From: Fomitopsis serialis
Lineage: Eukaryota; Basidiomycota; Agaricomycetes; Polyporales; Fomitopsidaceae
DNA length: 64,000 nt
NCBI RefSeq assembly: GCF_022376445.1
Contig: NW_025954965.1
Location: forward strand, 744,001 to 808,000
Reading direction: 5' to 3'
The position numbers and the translations under genes are program-made. A model generated the notes under the pieces. The model saw only the letters and a list, made by a program, of their open reading frames with translations, had not been told where the DNA came from and ran no database searches. This document shows, in pieces, positions 2,833 through 16,465 of the stretch (position 1 is its first letter; each line of letters begins with the position of its first letter).

Positions 2833-4472
2833 ATGCCAGCGTCGGAGAGTGTAGCGGTCTTCTGGGACTATGGTACGTGTTGTGGCGAACAGTCGCCGTC
2901 GATCGGTCGACGCCACACTGACGGTGATCAACCCATCCATGTCGTTCTGAACACCATCTTGCCCAGAGAACTGTGCTGTTCCATCCAACACATCTGGCAG
3001 TGTTATTGCCAACAACATCCGACGCATCGCCCATCAATATGGGAGTGTGAAGACGTTCAAGGCGTACATGGAGCTACCAGAACAGTCCTCACCAAAGAGC
3101 TATGCTCTGCGATCGGAGCTGCAGCTTTGCGGGGTCTCTTTGATAGACTGCCCTCACAATGGCAGCAAAGATGTCGCCGACAAGATGATGATCGGTACGG
3201 ACACTCTACTCGGTGCCCCGGATGACCTGCTCATGAGCCCGCAGTGGATATGATGGCCTATGCCATCGATACCCAAGCTCCTGCGACCATCATCCTCATC
3301 TCGGGCGACCGAGACTTCGTATACGCGGTCTCCGTACTGTGTCTGCGCCAATACCGGCTCATAGTGCTTGCGCCACATGCGGCACACACGAGCCTGAAAG
3401 CGCAGGCCAGTGTGGTGTACTCCTGGCCCGCCGATGTCCTGCCAGACGAGCCGTCAGCGGACGGCACCAAGTCTCGCAGCGGCACCATCCCCGAGTACTT
3501 CCGTTCTCGAAGCGATCCTCCACCATCGACGGCGGTGCGATTCACCGCAGCCGTCCCGGCGTCGCCGCCTCTGTCTCCCGCGCACCGAGGCGGCCGATGC
3601 CCACGAGTGCACCGTCGGATTCTGCCCTCCTGCGACCAATGCCGCAGCACTGGGTGCCGAAAGTGTCCTCATCACCCACGGCAAGCACCCCCGGGCTGCC
3701 CGTTGCTTCTGGCACGGTAAGCCTCGTCCCTATGCATTCTTCTCAATGGCTGATGCGTCAACTGTCCCGCCTAGCCTTCCAGCGACACGACGGCGGTCGA
3801 TTCTGAGCAGAAGCTCCGGCGTCCCTCCTTCCTTCCATCGAGACGCCGGGGTCGTACTTCAGCAATCCATACCAGCAGCCCAGCCCGAGCCCATCGCCGA
3901 AGCGGGACACTGCAGACATACCACATCTGCAGTGGGGCTCCCTCGCATCAACCGAGGTCGAGACATCGCGGCTGAACGTGGACGCCCCCTCTTTCACGAG
4001 CAAGATATGGCCCGAGGATGAACTCCCGAACCTCTCTTCCAGCATCCCGGCCCCGCTAGTAGACACCACGAAGCGCGGCCTCCCCGCGCACTTCCGCCCG
4101 CTCGTCAAGGTCCTGAAGCAACGGCTCAAAGAGGGTGTGGCGCAGGTTGCCTACTCCGAGCTGGGGACGTTGCTCCGCCAGGAGTCCGCGGCGGTCTACG
4201 AGCTGGCCGGCGTGTCGAAGCTGAAGGAGTACTCCTGCTTGGCGGAAGACGCGGGGGTCGTGATCCTCACGGAGAACGTGTACGGCCCTGGAGGCGTCGA
4301 CGGGCAGCGATGGGTGTCGCTGCACCCCCGCCTGGTGAAGGGCGCTGCGCGGAGGACCCTGGATGAATGGTGAGTAGCGGGTTTGTGGGATTGCGTGGTT
4401 TGTTGAGATCACTGAAGCTGATGCTCGATTTGCCTCAGGACGTTCATGGCGCGCCAGGGTACTAGCAAGTAG
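2833..4472 (+). CDS. NYN-domain putative RNA-binding nuclease with C-terminal OST-HTH/LOTUS-like domain (copy 1)
   Basis: Predicted RNA-binding endonuclease of the MARF1 (limkain-b1) type. The NYN domain fills the first 130 or so residues: VAVFWDYEN after splicing, then NNIRRIAHQYGSVKTFKAYM, the acidic motif KDVADKMM, and SGDRDFVYAVSVL. These hold the conserved aspartates of PIN-like nucleases. A Ser/Pro-rich linker follows, then a C-terminal module near 4080-4370 (HFRPLVKVLKQRLKEG...VAYSELGTLLRQE...WVSLHPRLV) that looks like an OST-HTH fold. Intron 1 interrupts the DYE codon, intron 2 follows KMMI, and the last intron joins TLDEW to TFMARQGTSK before TAG at 4470-4472. The linker between about 3540 and 3810 changes frame; I find a GTAAGC donor at 3717 and an acceptor at 3810, but one extra frame change is unexplained. 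A closely related copy lies at 16841-18804. Confidence 0.75.
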
Positions 4473-10776: not shown

Positions 10777-11960
10777 ATGAATCTCTTGCGACTGTCCTCG
10801 CGGCTTGTACTGGGCGTAGCTACTCGGAGGCCACTCCACACTTCCTGTGTTTGCGCTTCAGGACATAACAAAGTCAGTGTATGGTCCTCCAACCCTGGCA
10901 GTTTAGTGAACTGACCGAAGCGTCACGCAGTGGTCGAAAATCAAAGGAGTAAAGGGTGTCATGGACCGCGAAAGAGGAAAGATACATAGCAAAGCGAACA
11001 AGGTCCGTCTTCACGCGTAGTGCTTTGTCGATGCGTCCAGCTGAACCTGCCACGCAGGATATAGCGATCGCGGTGCGAAGTACGCCTGTTTGCCCTCATT
11101 CCCGTCGTTGAACTGTGGTTCCAATCTCCTTCGTATGGTAGCGGGAGGGAGCCTTGACCCCGAGACGAATATGACACTGGCTGCGGTACTGCAGAGGTTG
11201 AAGGCACAAGGCGTGCCGAAGGAGCTTGTCGAGAACGCTCTCAAAAGGGCTGCTGGTGGAGGGGAAAGGGGAGACCAGCAGCTGGTCTATGAGGCTATAG
11301 CGCCTGGATCCGTCGGGTTGATCATGTATGTCCATCCGCCACTCTCTTGTCGAAGCCCTTACACCGACTCCGCGTAGAGAATGCCAAACGGACAATGTGA
11401 CCCGGGCCATGCACAAGGTGCGCAATGTACTCACGACAAATAGGTACGCCTTGGCAACTATTGTTGTTGATGCCACGATGTTGACTGTAGCCTAGCGCAC
11501 GTCTCGCACCAGTCAAGTTTATGTTCACTCGGCAAGGTCTCGTGAAGGTGGCACTGGAACATGACGGGTCATACGCAGAACTGCTTGAGCCTCTCATCGA
11601 GAAGATGATAGATGCAGGTGCCGAGGACTTCGTGGAGTCAGTACCAGAAGAGGGCGATGCGGAGGTTACTGTAAGTGTTCCTCAATTGGCTTCAGGGCTT
11701 GTAGCTAACCCGCACTTCAGTTCACCTGCCAGCCAGAAGACCTCAACAAGTTGACCTCAGTTGCCACGAAGACGGGTATGTGCAAGGAGCTCCTGAGCAG
11801 TGACCTCGTATATAGTCCTGTAGAGAAGACTGCAGACCTAGACGAGGACACTGTTCGAAACACTGGACGAAAATTGCGATATTTTCATGTGAAAGATTGT
11901 AAACAAGAGGCCAAACAATTTTTGTGTATTTCATCTGAGAATGATCTTCAAAATGATTGA
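10777..11960 (+). CDS. TACO1/YebC-family mitochondrial translation factor, 3' end replaced by an inserted element
   Basis: Mitochondrial member of the YebC family; TACO1 promotes translation of cytochrome oxidase subunit I mRNA in animals, and bacterial YebC helps ribosomes at polyproline. The start MNLLRLSSRLVLGVATRRPL at 10777 is an Arg/Leu-rich likely mitochondrial presequence. The family signature ASGHNKWSKIKGVKGVMDRE follows across the first intron. Later exons give VLQRLKAQGVPKELVENALK, IECQTDNVTRAMHKVRNVLT, ARLAPVKFMFTRQGLVKV and SYAELLEPLIEKMIDAGAED. The native frame runs to DLDEDTVR and is then interrupted at 11861 by the palindromic element, which supplies about 32 foreign codons and a TGA at 11958-11960. 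The missing C-terminal codons are found beyond the element at 16387-16465. The truncated product lacks roughly the last 21 residues of the domain, so function is doubtful unless the element is removed or rare. Confidence 0.88.
11858..11860. other. Left target-site duplication (AAA) of the palindromic element
   Basis: The three bases immediately before the left end CACTGG are AAA, and the three after the right end CCAGTG (16387-16389) are also AAA. With one AAA kept and the element removed, the TACO1-like frame reads through. Three bases is the usual duplication size of CACTA transposons. AAA alone is short, so the reading-frame restoration is the stronger evidence. Confidence 0.65.
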
Positions 11961-14077
11961 AAATATCTTTGCTCTCCTTCTTAGTGAAAGATTGGAAAAG
12001 GATTGATGAGAGCTTTGAAATCATTTGATTGCTGTCATACATGTGTCTTTCTGCCTCAATGATTCAATAAGTATATGAGGCATACTAGCAATCAATTTGA
12101 CTCTAATGATTACAGAAAGATACAAAACCAGAACTTGAAGTCCTGATTGTCAATCCTTGCTTGAACTTTCTGTTGAGAATGATAGTGATTTGGTTTTGAA
12201 TCTTATGGCCTTGAAGTATTGAAGAAAGATGGTAAACAATGATCATAGAACAGGATTTCAAATCTTATTAACAGATTTTGTGGCCAATGATAAGAAGGAT
12301 ATTATGAATCCAGTCTCTATCAGTGTACATCTTGCTACAGTGCATATTGTGTCATGTTCTGCATATGTTTACTAGGTTTTATCATGAATGATTTAAAAAA
12401 GATTGCAGACATTTTTCTCTATCTTTTGGCAAGAAGGATCACTTTATTATGCTAGATGGCCAGGCATCATGGTTGTATGGTACATCTGTGATCCAGCCAT
12501 CATTCATTCAGAGATCATTAGCTTTGAAAGATATATAATGGATTGTCACACCCTGTTATGAATCCTTTTGCCATCATGTTCCATGAAGGATGTCAAAATG
12601 ATTGTCACACCCTGTTATGAATCTTTTTGTGATCACTTTCCTCAAAAGATACATAAATGATTGTGACAGACTGTGAATTTGCAAGGGGTTTAATTCAGTC
12701 ACAAACAGAGCTATCATAGCAGCAATCATGTACAGCTGTGGACACTGTGCCACTGTGGTGGTCCCTGCCAAACAGAGGCTATGAATGGTCTGTGCCACAT
12801 GCATTCCATATATGACATTCTCTTTTGCTCAATCAGGGTCAGCATTTACCCCCATTCACAATGTACACAGAAGTGCAGAGTACAACACAACTTACTTCCA
12901 AGTGTAGTGTGTGATGCAGGAATGTATTGTACATGCTACAATACACACTGAGATGTACATTGTGAGTGGCACAGCACATTGATGTACTTCAATGAATGTG
13001 ATGCACATCTGGATATACATTGTACATAGTCATATAGAGCATGGCCTGCTTGGTCAAGGCCAATGTATGTGGGAATGTATCATACATGCTACGATGTACA
13101 CTGGGATGTACATTGTGAGTGGCACAGCACATTGATATAGTTCAGCCAATGCAATGTACATGTGGATGCACATTATGCATAGTCACCAGAGCATGGCCTG
13201 TTTTATCAAGGCCAATGTATGCAAGATTGTACTGTACATGTAATGATGTACATTGGGATGTACAATGCAAGCGGCTGAGCATGTTAATGTACCTCAACAA
13301 ATGCCATGTGCATCTGTATATACATTGTGCATTGCCAATAGACCATAGCCTGCTTGGTCAAGATCAATATATGCAGGAATATACTGTACTTGATACAATG
13401 TACACTGGGATGTACATTGTGAGTGGCACAGCACATTAATGTACCTCAACAAATGCCATGTGCATCTGTATGTACATTGTGCATTGCCAATAGACCATAG
13501 CCTGCTTGGTCAAGGTTAATATATGCAGGAATGTACCATACATGCTATGATGTACACTGGGATGTACATCATGAGTGGCACAGCACATTAATGTACCTCA
13601 ATAAATGCAATGCACATCTGGATGTACATTATGCATAGTCAAATGGAGCATGGCCTGCTTCATCAAGGCCAATGCACATGGGAAAATATCATACATGCTA
13701 CAATGTATACTGGGATGTACATTGTGAGTGGCACAGCAAGTTAATGTACTTCAGCCAATGTGATGTGCATCTGGATGTACACTATGCATAGTCAATAGAG
13801 CATGGCCTGCATGGTCAAGGTCAATGTATGCAGCAATGTACTGTACATGCTATGATGTACACTGGGATGTACATAGTGAGTGGCACAGCACATTCATGTA
13901 CTTTAATGAACATAATGCACATCTGAATGTACATATTGCATTGTCAACAGAGCATGACCTGCTTGGTTAATGTTGGTGTATGTGGCAATATACTGTATGT
14001 GCTACATTGTACATTGACATGTACACTGCAAGTAGCAGAGCACATTGATGTACTTCAACCAATGCAACATACATCTC
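11861..14077 (+). repeat. Left arm of the 2217-bp inverted repeat
   Basis: Pairs base for base with 14170-16386 in reverse complement. The outer limit is set by A at 11860 facing A at 16387, and the inner limit by A at 14078 facing C at 14169, both mismatches. Contains a direct repeat of 24 bases starting GATTGTCACACCCTG at 12541-12564 and 12600-12623. Confidence 0.93.
11892..12650 (+). repeat. Subterminal AAAGAT motif cluster
   Basis: AAAGAT occurs at 11892, 11987, 12116, 12225, 12398, 12527 and 12645, all in one orientation, and as ATCTTT at mirrored places in the right arm. Clustered short repeats near the termini are the transposase-binding sites in CACTA elements; that role here is inference from position and spacing. 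Confidence 0.5.
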
Positions 14078-14109
14078 AATGTATATTGTGCATAGTCAAT
14101 AGAGCATGG
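12905..14109 (+). repeat. About eight tandem copies of a 152-bp repeat (left array)
   Basis: The anchor GTGGCACAGCACATT and its variants starts at 12966, 13119, 13271, 13423, 13575, 13728, 13880 and 14032, giving steps of 153, 152, 152, 152, 153, 152 and 152. Each unit is rich in GTACAT/ATGTAC words and contains GAGCATGGCCTGCTTGGTCA or a variant. Units differ from one another at many positions. The array runs about 32 bases past the arm boundary into the spacer. Confidence 0.85.
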
Positions 14110-14169
14110 TTTACTCACTCATCACTCTCAGTATGCTGGGCAATCTTGATGACAAGACTGCATTTGATC
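14078..14169. other. Spacer at the centre of the palindrome
   Basis: 92 bases with no mirror partner. The first 32 continue the left tandem array; the last 60 or so are unlike the repeat and look like filler DNA. Such an asymmetric loop keeps the palindrome from being perfect at its centre. Confidence 0.8.
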
Positions 14170-16386
14170 GAGATGTATGTTGCATTGGTTGAAGTACATC
14201 AATGTGCTCTGCTACTTGCAGTGTACATGTCAATGTACAATGTAGCACATACAGTATATTGCCACATACACCAACATTAACCAAGCAGGTCATGCTCTGT
14301 TGACAATGCAATATGTACATTCAGATGTGCATTATGTTCATTAAAGTACATGAATGTGCTGTGCCACTCACTATGTACATCCCAGTGTACATCATAGCAT
14401 GTACAGTACATTGCTGCATACATTGACCTTGACCATGCAGGCCATGCTCTATTGACTATGCATAGTGTACATCCAGATGCACATCACATTGGCTGAAGTA
14501 CATTAACTTGCTGTGCCACTCACAATGTACATCCCAGTATACATTGTAGCATGTATGATATTTTCCCATGTGCATTGGCCTTGATGAAGCAGGCCATGCT
14601 CCATTTGACTATGCATAATGTACATCCAGATGTGCATTGCATTTATTGAGGTACATTAATGTGCTGTGCCACTCATGATGTACATCCCAGTGTACATCAT
14701 AGCATGTATGGTACATTCCTGCATATATTAACCTTGACCAAGCAGGCTATGGTCTATTGGCAATGCACAATGTACATACAGATGCACATGGCATTTGTTG
14801 AGGTACATTAATGTGCTGTGCCACTCACAATGTACATCCCAGTGTACATTGTATCAAGTACAGTATATTCCTGCATATATTGATCTTGACCAAGCAGGCT
14901 ATGGTCTATTGGCAATGCACAATGTATATACAGATGCACATGGCATTTGTTGAGGTACATTAACATGCTCAGCCGCTTGCATTGTACATCCCAATGTACA
15001 TCATTACATGTACAGTACAATCTTGCATACATTGGCCTTGATAAAACAGGCCATGCTCTGGTGACTATGCATAATGTGCATCCACATGTACATTGCATTG
15101 GCTGAACTATATCAATGTGCTGTGCCACTCACAATGTACATCCCAGTGTACATCGTAGCATGTATGATACATTCCCACATACATTGGCCTTGACCAAGCA
15201 GGCCATGCTCTATATGACTATGTACAATGTATATCCAGATGTGCATCACATTCATTGAAGTACATCAATGTGCTGTGCCACTCACAATGTACATCTCAGT
15301 GTGTATTGTAGCATGTACAATACATTCCTGCATCACACACTACACTTGGAAGTAAGTTGTGTTGTACTCTGCACTTCTGTGTACATTGTGAATGGGGGTA
15401 AATGCTGACCCTGATTGAGCAAAAGAGAATGTCATATATGGAATGCATGTGGCACAGACCATTCATAGCCTCTGTTTGGCAGGGACCACCACAGTGGCAC
15501 AGTGTCCACAGCTGTACATGATTGCTGCTATGATAGCTCTGTTTGTGACTGAATTAAACCCCTTGCAAATTCACAGTCTGTCACAATCATTTATGTATCT
15601 TTTGAGGAAAGTGATCACAAAAAGATTCATAACAGGGTGTGACAATCATTTTGACATCCTTCATGGAACATGATGGCAAAAGGATTCATAACAGGGTGTG
15701 ACAATCCATTATATATCTTTCAAAGCTAATGATCTCTGAATGAATGATGGCTGGATCACAGATGTACCATACAACCATGATGCCTGGCCATCTAGCATAA
15801 TAAAGTGATCCTTCTTGCCAAAAGATAGAGAAAAATGTCTGCAATCTTTTTTAAATCATTCATGATAAAACCTAGTAAACATATGCAGAACATGACACAA
15901 TATGCACTGTAGCAAGATGTACACTGATAGAGACTGGATTCATAATATCCTTCTTATCATTGGCCACAAAATCTGTTAATAAGATTTGAAATCCTGTTCT
16001 ATGATCATTGTTTACCATCTTTCTTCAATACTTCAAGGCCATAAGATTCAAAACCAAATCACTATCATTCTCAACAGAAAGTTCAAGCAAGGATTGACAA
16101 TCAGGACTTCAAGTTCTGGTTTTGTATCTTTCTGTAATCATTAGAGTCAAATTGATTGCTAGTATGCCTCATATACTTATTGAATCATTGAGGCAGAAAG
16201 ACACATGTATGACAGCAATCAAATGATTTCAAAGCTCTCATCAATCCTTTTCCAATCTTTCACTAAGAAGGAGAGCAAAGATATTTTCAATCATTTTGAA
16301 GATCATTCTCAGATGAAATACACAAAAATTGTTTGGCCTCTTGTTTACAATCTTTCACATGAAAATATCGCAATTTTCGTCCAGTG
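14170..16386 (-). repeat. Right arm of the 2217-bp inverted repeat
   Basis: Reverse complement of 11861-14077, including the mirrored 152-bp tandem array (about 14170-15342) and the ATCTTT motif cluster (15597-16355). Open frames seen in it, for example at 15443-15673, are exact mirror images of frames in the left arm and carry no protein motif. Confidence 0.93.
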
Positions 16387-16465
16387 AAAGGTGAAGCGGA
16401 TTGTCGAGGTACTCGAGGAGAGAGTTGATGATGTGCTCAAAGTATGGACTACACTAGACCATTAA
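16387..16465 (+). pseudogene. Stranded 3' end of the TACO1/YebC-family gene
   Basis: After the second AAA duplication, the sequence reads GTG AAG CGG ATT and on as VKRIVEVLEERVDDVLKVW, then TTLDH and TAA at 16463-16465. This matches the end of the YebC/TACO1 fold, where a final helix followed by a DDV-(Q/L)-x-V-(Y/W) strand closes the protein. It continues the frame left at DEDTVR (11857) if the element and one AAA are removed. Separated from its gene by 4.5 kb of palindrome, it cannot be translated in the present arrangement unless the whole element is spliced out, for which I see no sites. Confidence 0.85.

Follow-up and report, generated by a model that had tools for sequence, protein, structure and literature searches.

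A mobile fold-back element with two identical 2217-nt arms and CACTA-like termini in the genome of Fomitopsis serialis

Two fold-back systems of Drosophila are the closest in build to the element described here. Tetris, from Drosophila virilis, is a non-autonomous fold-back transposon with inverted repeats of up to 1,735 bp (PMC4079207). Galileo, of the P superfamily, features a P-type transposase and 7-bp target-site duplications; in the copy singled out for its long terminal inverted repeats (TIRs), the longest on record there, these measure 1,260 and 1,241 bp and are 95.2% identical, and the authors propose that long TIRs draw recombination and conversion (PMC3573991). In fungi, EnSpm elements have CAC..GTG termini and 3-bp duplications, according to a review-type study (PMC12730594). 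The element under study is a 4526-nt palindrome residing in a 64,000-nt stretch of Fomitopsis serialis DNA (contig NW_025954965.1, positions 744,001 to 808,000; the window, in what follows). It is unusual because its arms are identical within a copy while copies differ, and because the arm is nearly CpG-free, yet CpGs persist at its terminus. We regard it, with a probability of about 80%, as a non-autonomous fold-back DNA transposon, moved in trans by a transposase most likely of the EnSpm/CACTA type, and with arms which templated copying keeps, or renders, identical.

The left arm (11861-14077, + strand) and the reverse complement of the right arm (14170-16386, - strand) align without gaps over 2217 positions with 0 mismatches, and flank a spacer of 92 nt (14078-14169). 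Arm length, gap-free pairing and spacer are those reported in an earlier note, drawn up from the letters of the window, in which the arms were identical in every stretch compared. An inverted-repeat drawing extends the arms to 2220, through one mismatch followed by two more matching bases. A perfect inverted repeat of 2217 bases far exceeds what may arise by chance; when perfect palindromes reach kilobase size, instability in replication is expected. Symmetry stops abruptly beyond 11861 and 16386, the left and right flanks being unlike each other. Each arm consists of an outer unique part, an array of 59-nt repeats and an array of 152-nt repeats, the latter rich in TGTACA. The 59-nt array spans 12527-12668 in the left arm (+, 2.4 copies) and 15607-15733 in the right arm (-, 2.2 copies), the 152-nt array 12914-14109 (+, 7.9 copies) and 14167-15333 (-, 7.7 copies), respectively. 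The first 45 nt of the spacer prolong the arm, and are also found at the centre of another copy of the element, located in contig C112. The arm is AT-rich (38.7% GC vs. 54.9% in the whole window) and, as far as tested, non-coding, as the same note had maintained: the longest open reading frame (ORF) listed inside the element encodes 117 aa, a Pfam scan of four element ORFs gave no match above cut-off and two weak ones below, and an Rfam scan gave no match at the gathering threshold.

Arms accounting for 2217 of 4526 nt each, and the 152-nt and 59-nt arrays, place the element in the fold-back (FB-like) structural class. As Tetris, it is non-autonomous, and combines long inverted repeats, an outer flanking domain and internal tandem repeats (about 220 bp in Tetris) with a middle devoid of coding sequence; in neither case has the source of transposase been found. 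It differs from Tetris in sequence and host, and in the inverted repeats, longer here (2,217 vs. up to 1,735 bp) and free of mismatches. Long, internally repetitive inverted repeats are shared with Galileo, many copies of which are made up by two arms only; in contrast, duplications are 3 bp long in 5/5 copies rather than 7 bp, and arms are 100% identical. The fold-back build is already known; what differs here is the 3-base duplication, the longer identical arms, the CpG pattern and the host. No fungal or CACTA fold-back element of this kind emerged from a search of the literature covering titles and abstract beginnings in a limited library.

Copies of the element were monitored by using one arm as query against the genome (66.2 Mb, 806 contigs; match counts are lower bounds), a search which the earlier note had proposed. 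At least 27 matching pieces of the arm are spread over eight contigs. Five copies are two-ended (C445, which is the window copy, C112, C212, C366 and C1), three are partial, C56 and C161 retaining one terminus each, C396 one terminus and a split arm. All 13 termini seen start with CACTGGACGAAAATTG, and the first 16 nt are exact in 12 of them, one change being found at the left end of C1. In the window, the terminal 26 nt (CACTGGACGAAAATTGCGATATTTTC) are located at 11861-11886 (+) and, inverted, at 16361-16386 (-). Target-site duplications of 3 bases flank all of the five two-ended copies (AAA, GGA, GCA, GAA and GTA); the two AAA copies in the window reside at 11858-11860 and 16387-16389. Exact empty sites, the joins of which were verified by script, were found for three of the five, in C593 (window copy), C340 (C112) and C69 (C212). 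In C593 (locus L041) the flanks are joined with a single AAA, at an identity of 99.25% on the left (2000 nt) and 97.5% on the right (2003 nt). The C69 site matches 400/400 query bases at 100% identity; the C340 site matches 268/400 query bases at 99%, across the junction, the remaining query falling in a high-copy repeat. The contigs carrying empty sites presumably derive from the other haplotype, in an assembly containing two, and insertion is demonstrated whether or not this is so.

Because several copies are found at different sites, within 3-base target-site duplications and matched, for three of them, by exact empty sites, the palindrome is a mobile element, and it has been mobile recently. 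The term giant fold-back element, used in the earlier note, is appropriate on the same grounds, and because the element is almost only two inverted arms; the recent origin envisaged there finds support as far as the insertion is concerned, this being missing from C593, where flanks are 97.5-99.25% identical. Features not touched upon at that time are the EnSpm/CACTA-like ends, arm homogenisation, CpG depletion, the interrupted gene, tandem repeats, other copies, duplications and empty sites. Y-chromosome palindromes maintain identical arms through arm-to-arm gene conversion; unlike these, which are fixed structures, the element is mobile, and at some sites is present in only one of two contigs.

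EnSpm/CACTA elements have CACTR termini, and CACTG..CAGTG is found at both ends of 5/5 two-ended copies; the same copies all feature 3-bp duplications, three being backed by exact empty sites. Repeated subterminal motifs bound by the transposase are known in EnSpm/CACTA elements. In the fold-back element, TGTACA occurs 23 times at arm positions 1054-2217, vs. a mean of 2.6 under a first-order Markov model, and is located in the tandem array. As fungal EnSpm/CACTA elements, it has CAC..GTG termini and 3-bp duplications; unlike them, it lacks a transposase, and its body is nearly all inverted arms (PMC12730594). Judged by its sequence, the element would behave like a non-autonomous CACTA transposon with a fold-back structure, likeness and not membership being claimed. 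Acting in trans, a transposase (most likely EnSpm/CACTA) would recognise CACTGGACGAAAATTG at both ends, excise the element, and reinsert it, generating a target-site duplication of 3 bases. As far as tested, no gene is present in the body, which consists of two long inverted arms containing the 152-base repeats. Arm identity is ascribed to templated copying of one arm from the other, which would proceed either through in-place gene conversion, or through re-formation of the palindrome around transposition.

The family yielded no Tnp2-type transposase, nor was a partner sharing its termini found; the lack of a transposase in the element is expected, because a non-autonomous derivative is envisaged. 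The genome hosts 27 Transposase_21 matches, 25 of which above cut-off. Plavaka matches number at least 139 in 66 Mb (123 of 323 candidates scored in the profile search), whereas 14 control genomes gave no Plavaka match; an abundance of this order would by itself point to a fungus, probably a basidiomycete. The 13-nt terminus, allowing up to one mismatch, is found at 87 genome sites, 43 being found with a reversed-pattern control. Of 20 exact sites, 13 are fold-back termini, and the other 7 fall in a repeat unrelated to the element. As judged by eye, C105 and C323 are the only contigs with terminus sites 20 kb or less from a Transposase_21 match. Near the Plavaka matches in C779, C121, C454 and C460, inspection by eye revealed a single one-mismatch site 8-18 kb off, and no inverted pair.

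The unrelated repeat starts with CACTGGGGAC, is found, nearly identical, at seven places (L046 4514-8195; L042-L045, L047, L048), and contains, 93 nt inside, CACTGGACGAAAAGTG, which is the 16-mer of the element with one change. One of its reading frames is predicted, by eye, to be HMG-box-like. That this repeat is an EnSpm transposon, and the carrier of the Transposase_21 ORF found in C105 and C323, was considered and rejected, the shared unit ending about 3.7 kb in, and the ORF lying beyond. C105 and C323 agree well past the shared unit, and appear allelic.

Some results weigh against the explanation preferred here. The eight contigs bearing copies host 0/27 Transposase_21 matches and 0/139 of the Plavaka matches listed; no transposase-bearing element sharing the ends was found, and no pair of terminus sites flanks any of the 27 Transposase_21 places (by eye). 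Termini and duplication length are the only characters entering the superfamily call. Furthermore, no allele was found in the genome for the C366 copy, and the C1 site is occupied, in its other allele (C517), by a different element.

That the transposase serving the fold-back structure belongs to a different superfamily (PIF/Harbinger, Plavaka, or other) is improbable. PIF/Harbinger elements also generate 3-bp duplications, but these are TWA, a pattern which AAA, GGA, GCA, GAA and GTA do not match. Plavaka elements are numerous in this genome, as seen above, and PlavakaB duplications are of 2 or 3 bp; yet Plavaka ends are TGT..ACA or CATCA..TGATG, vs. CACTG..CAGTG here (PMC12730594).

Arms were compared over the outer 1080 alignment columns (1020-1080 per comparison) in the five two-ended copies. 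Differences between arms of the same copy amount to 0, 0, 0, 0 and 2, differences between copies to 1-14; all pairs of copies but one differ by 4-14 substitutions, and a 60-column gap separates two subgroups. Seven private substitutions are carried on both arms (two each in C366, C1 and C212, one in C112), and two, both in C1, on one arm only. The window copy and C112 are distinguished by a single arm substitution, found at the mirror positions 834 and 3693. The remaining differences within copies cluster at the centre, arm length and spacer varying there from copy to copy. Because the arms of one copy are closer to each other than to the arms of other copies, the sequence of one arm has been transferred to the other since the divergence of the copies.

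Perfect identity would also be observed if one arm had been read twice in library or assembly (for example, in a hairpin read), or if arms had collapsed in polishing, a step which might in principle remove small differences. Such an artefact, already contemplated in the earlier note, is very unlikely on the sequence data: the flanks differ and symmetry ends at the element ends, duplications flank 5/5 two-ended copies, another contig holds the window flanks joined element-free, exact empty sites exist for three copies in all, copies vary in arm length and spacer, and C1 retains two arm differences. Equally hard to sustain is the notion that identity reflects youth only, a perfect palindrome having spread recently with no arm-to-arm copying. 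Insertions are recent, as shown by the empty sites, and by that of C212 in particular; but the spread of substitutions among copies, the 60-column subgroup gap and the seven private changes present on both arms do not fit, since without copying the arms of a copy, differing at 0-2 positions, could not be more similar than those of different copies.

Nested in the right arm of C1 is a CpG-rich insertion, about 267 nt long, which lies beside TA and whose ends are CTGTAGCGAACCC / GGGTTCGCTACAG (L014, element positions ~1482-1748; by eye). C1 looks like an older copy, because it features two one-arm changes and the nested insertion; its pattern fits slow conversion and arm re-formation at transposition equally well. 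The element occupying the C517 allele is about 1.4 kb long, has inverted ends (166 nt at 99.4%), begins with ACGCTGAGG beside TA, and lies within about two bases of the C1 fold-back insertion point (L053 1-261 / L054 1-201; C517:2500-2760, 3760-3960). In C396 the arm is split at positions 194-198, with a 5-base overlap, by about 500 nt (L049 4326-9740); ORFs predicted, by eye, to resemble the polyprotein of a long terminal repeat (LTR) retrotransposon are found after the split arm.

The arm contains 4 CpGs vs. 82.6 expected from base composition, and is enriched in TpG (265 vs. 140.5 predicted) and CpA (236 vs. 122.3 predicted). The arm has a CpG observed/expected ratio of 0.05, vs. 1.05 for the rest of the window; values per kilobase run from 0.87 to 1.13 and from 1.13 to 1.38 in two other repeats of the genome. 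Two of the four CpGs are located at arm positions 8 and 17, hence within the terminal 26 nt, and both are kept at 13/13 termini seen; the binomial chance that at least two of four fall within the outer 26 bases is 0.0008. Methylation-linked deamination of CpG sites has been described in basidiomycete transposons (PMC4352252). We read the pattern as a probable long-term loss of CpGs through methylation-linked deamination, the terminus having been kept by selection for recognition by the transposase. As a caution, the terminal excess consists of two sites out of four CpGs, in copies which are related. The one-armed C56 copy continues into CpG-poor DNA of a different kind (L011 2101-2805), matched at 68-93% by 26 further genome pieces, and perhaps representing a second CpG-poor element family.

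A bolder proposal, which we hold as possible but doubtful, is that each transposition, at the event itself or close to it, restores the palindrome from one arm only, the excised or replicating element folding back and copying itself (snap-back copying), and that the body, CpG-poor except at the ends recognised by the transposase, thereby evades CpG methylation and keeps moving. If true, each new copy would begin with identical arms, one-arm differences arising only later, and the element would be a transposon renewing itself by folding.

The window copy interrupts a TACO1/YebC-like gene, being inserted in its last exon. The part of this exon upstream of the insertion spans 11721-11857 (+), and the severed 3' end of the coding sequence, including the stop codon, 16388-16465 (+), exon borders having been set by eye. 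The uninterrupted last exon in C593 (L041) matches PF01709 at 33.6 bits (cut-off 27); in the window, the upstream gene piece matches PF20772 at 40.6 (cut-off 36), and the middle piece PF01709 at 22.5, under cut-off. Both are TACO1/YebC families. The insertion replaces the final 25 residues of the gene product with 33 element-derived residues. This displacement in a conserved product, and copies found at separate places, flanked by target-site duplications and with empty counterparts, denoting transposition, leave hardly any room for a hairpin-RNA locus or a host regulatory element, although the element is non-coding, and transcription across it would presumably produce a very long double-stranded RNA.

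Several copies and empty counterparts in one genome make stability, central changes and arm copying traceable copy by copy, and the pattern of mutations found on both arms or on one arm is a direct readout of the homogenisation of palindrome arms. The retention of CpGs at the ends, against their loss elsewhere, hints at the bases required for movement, and is relevant to the fate of transposons under methylation-linked mutation in fungi. The element is a natural case for studying how cells copy and tolerate giant palindromes.

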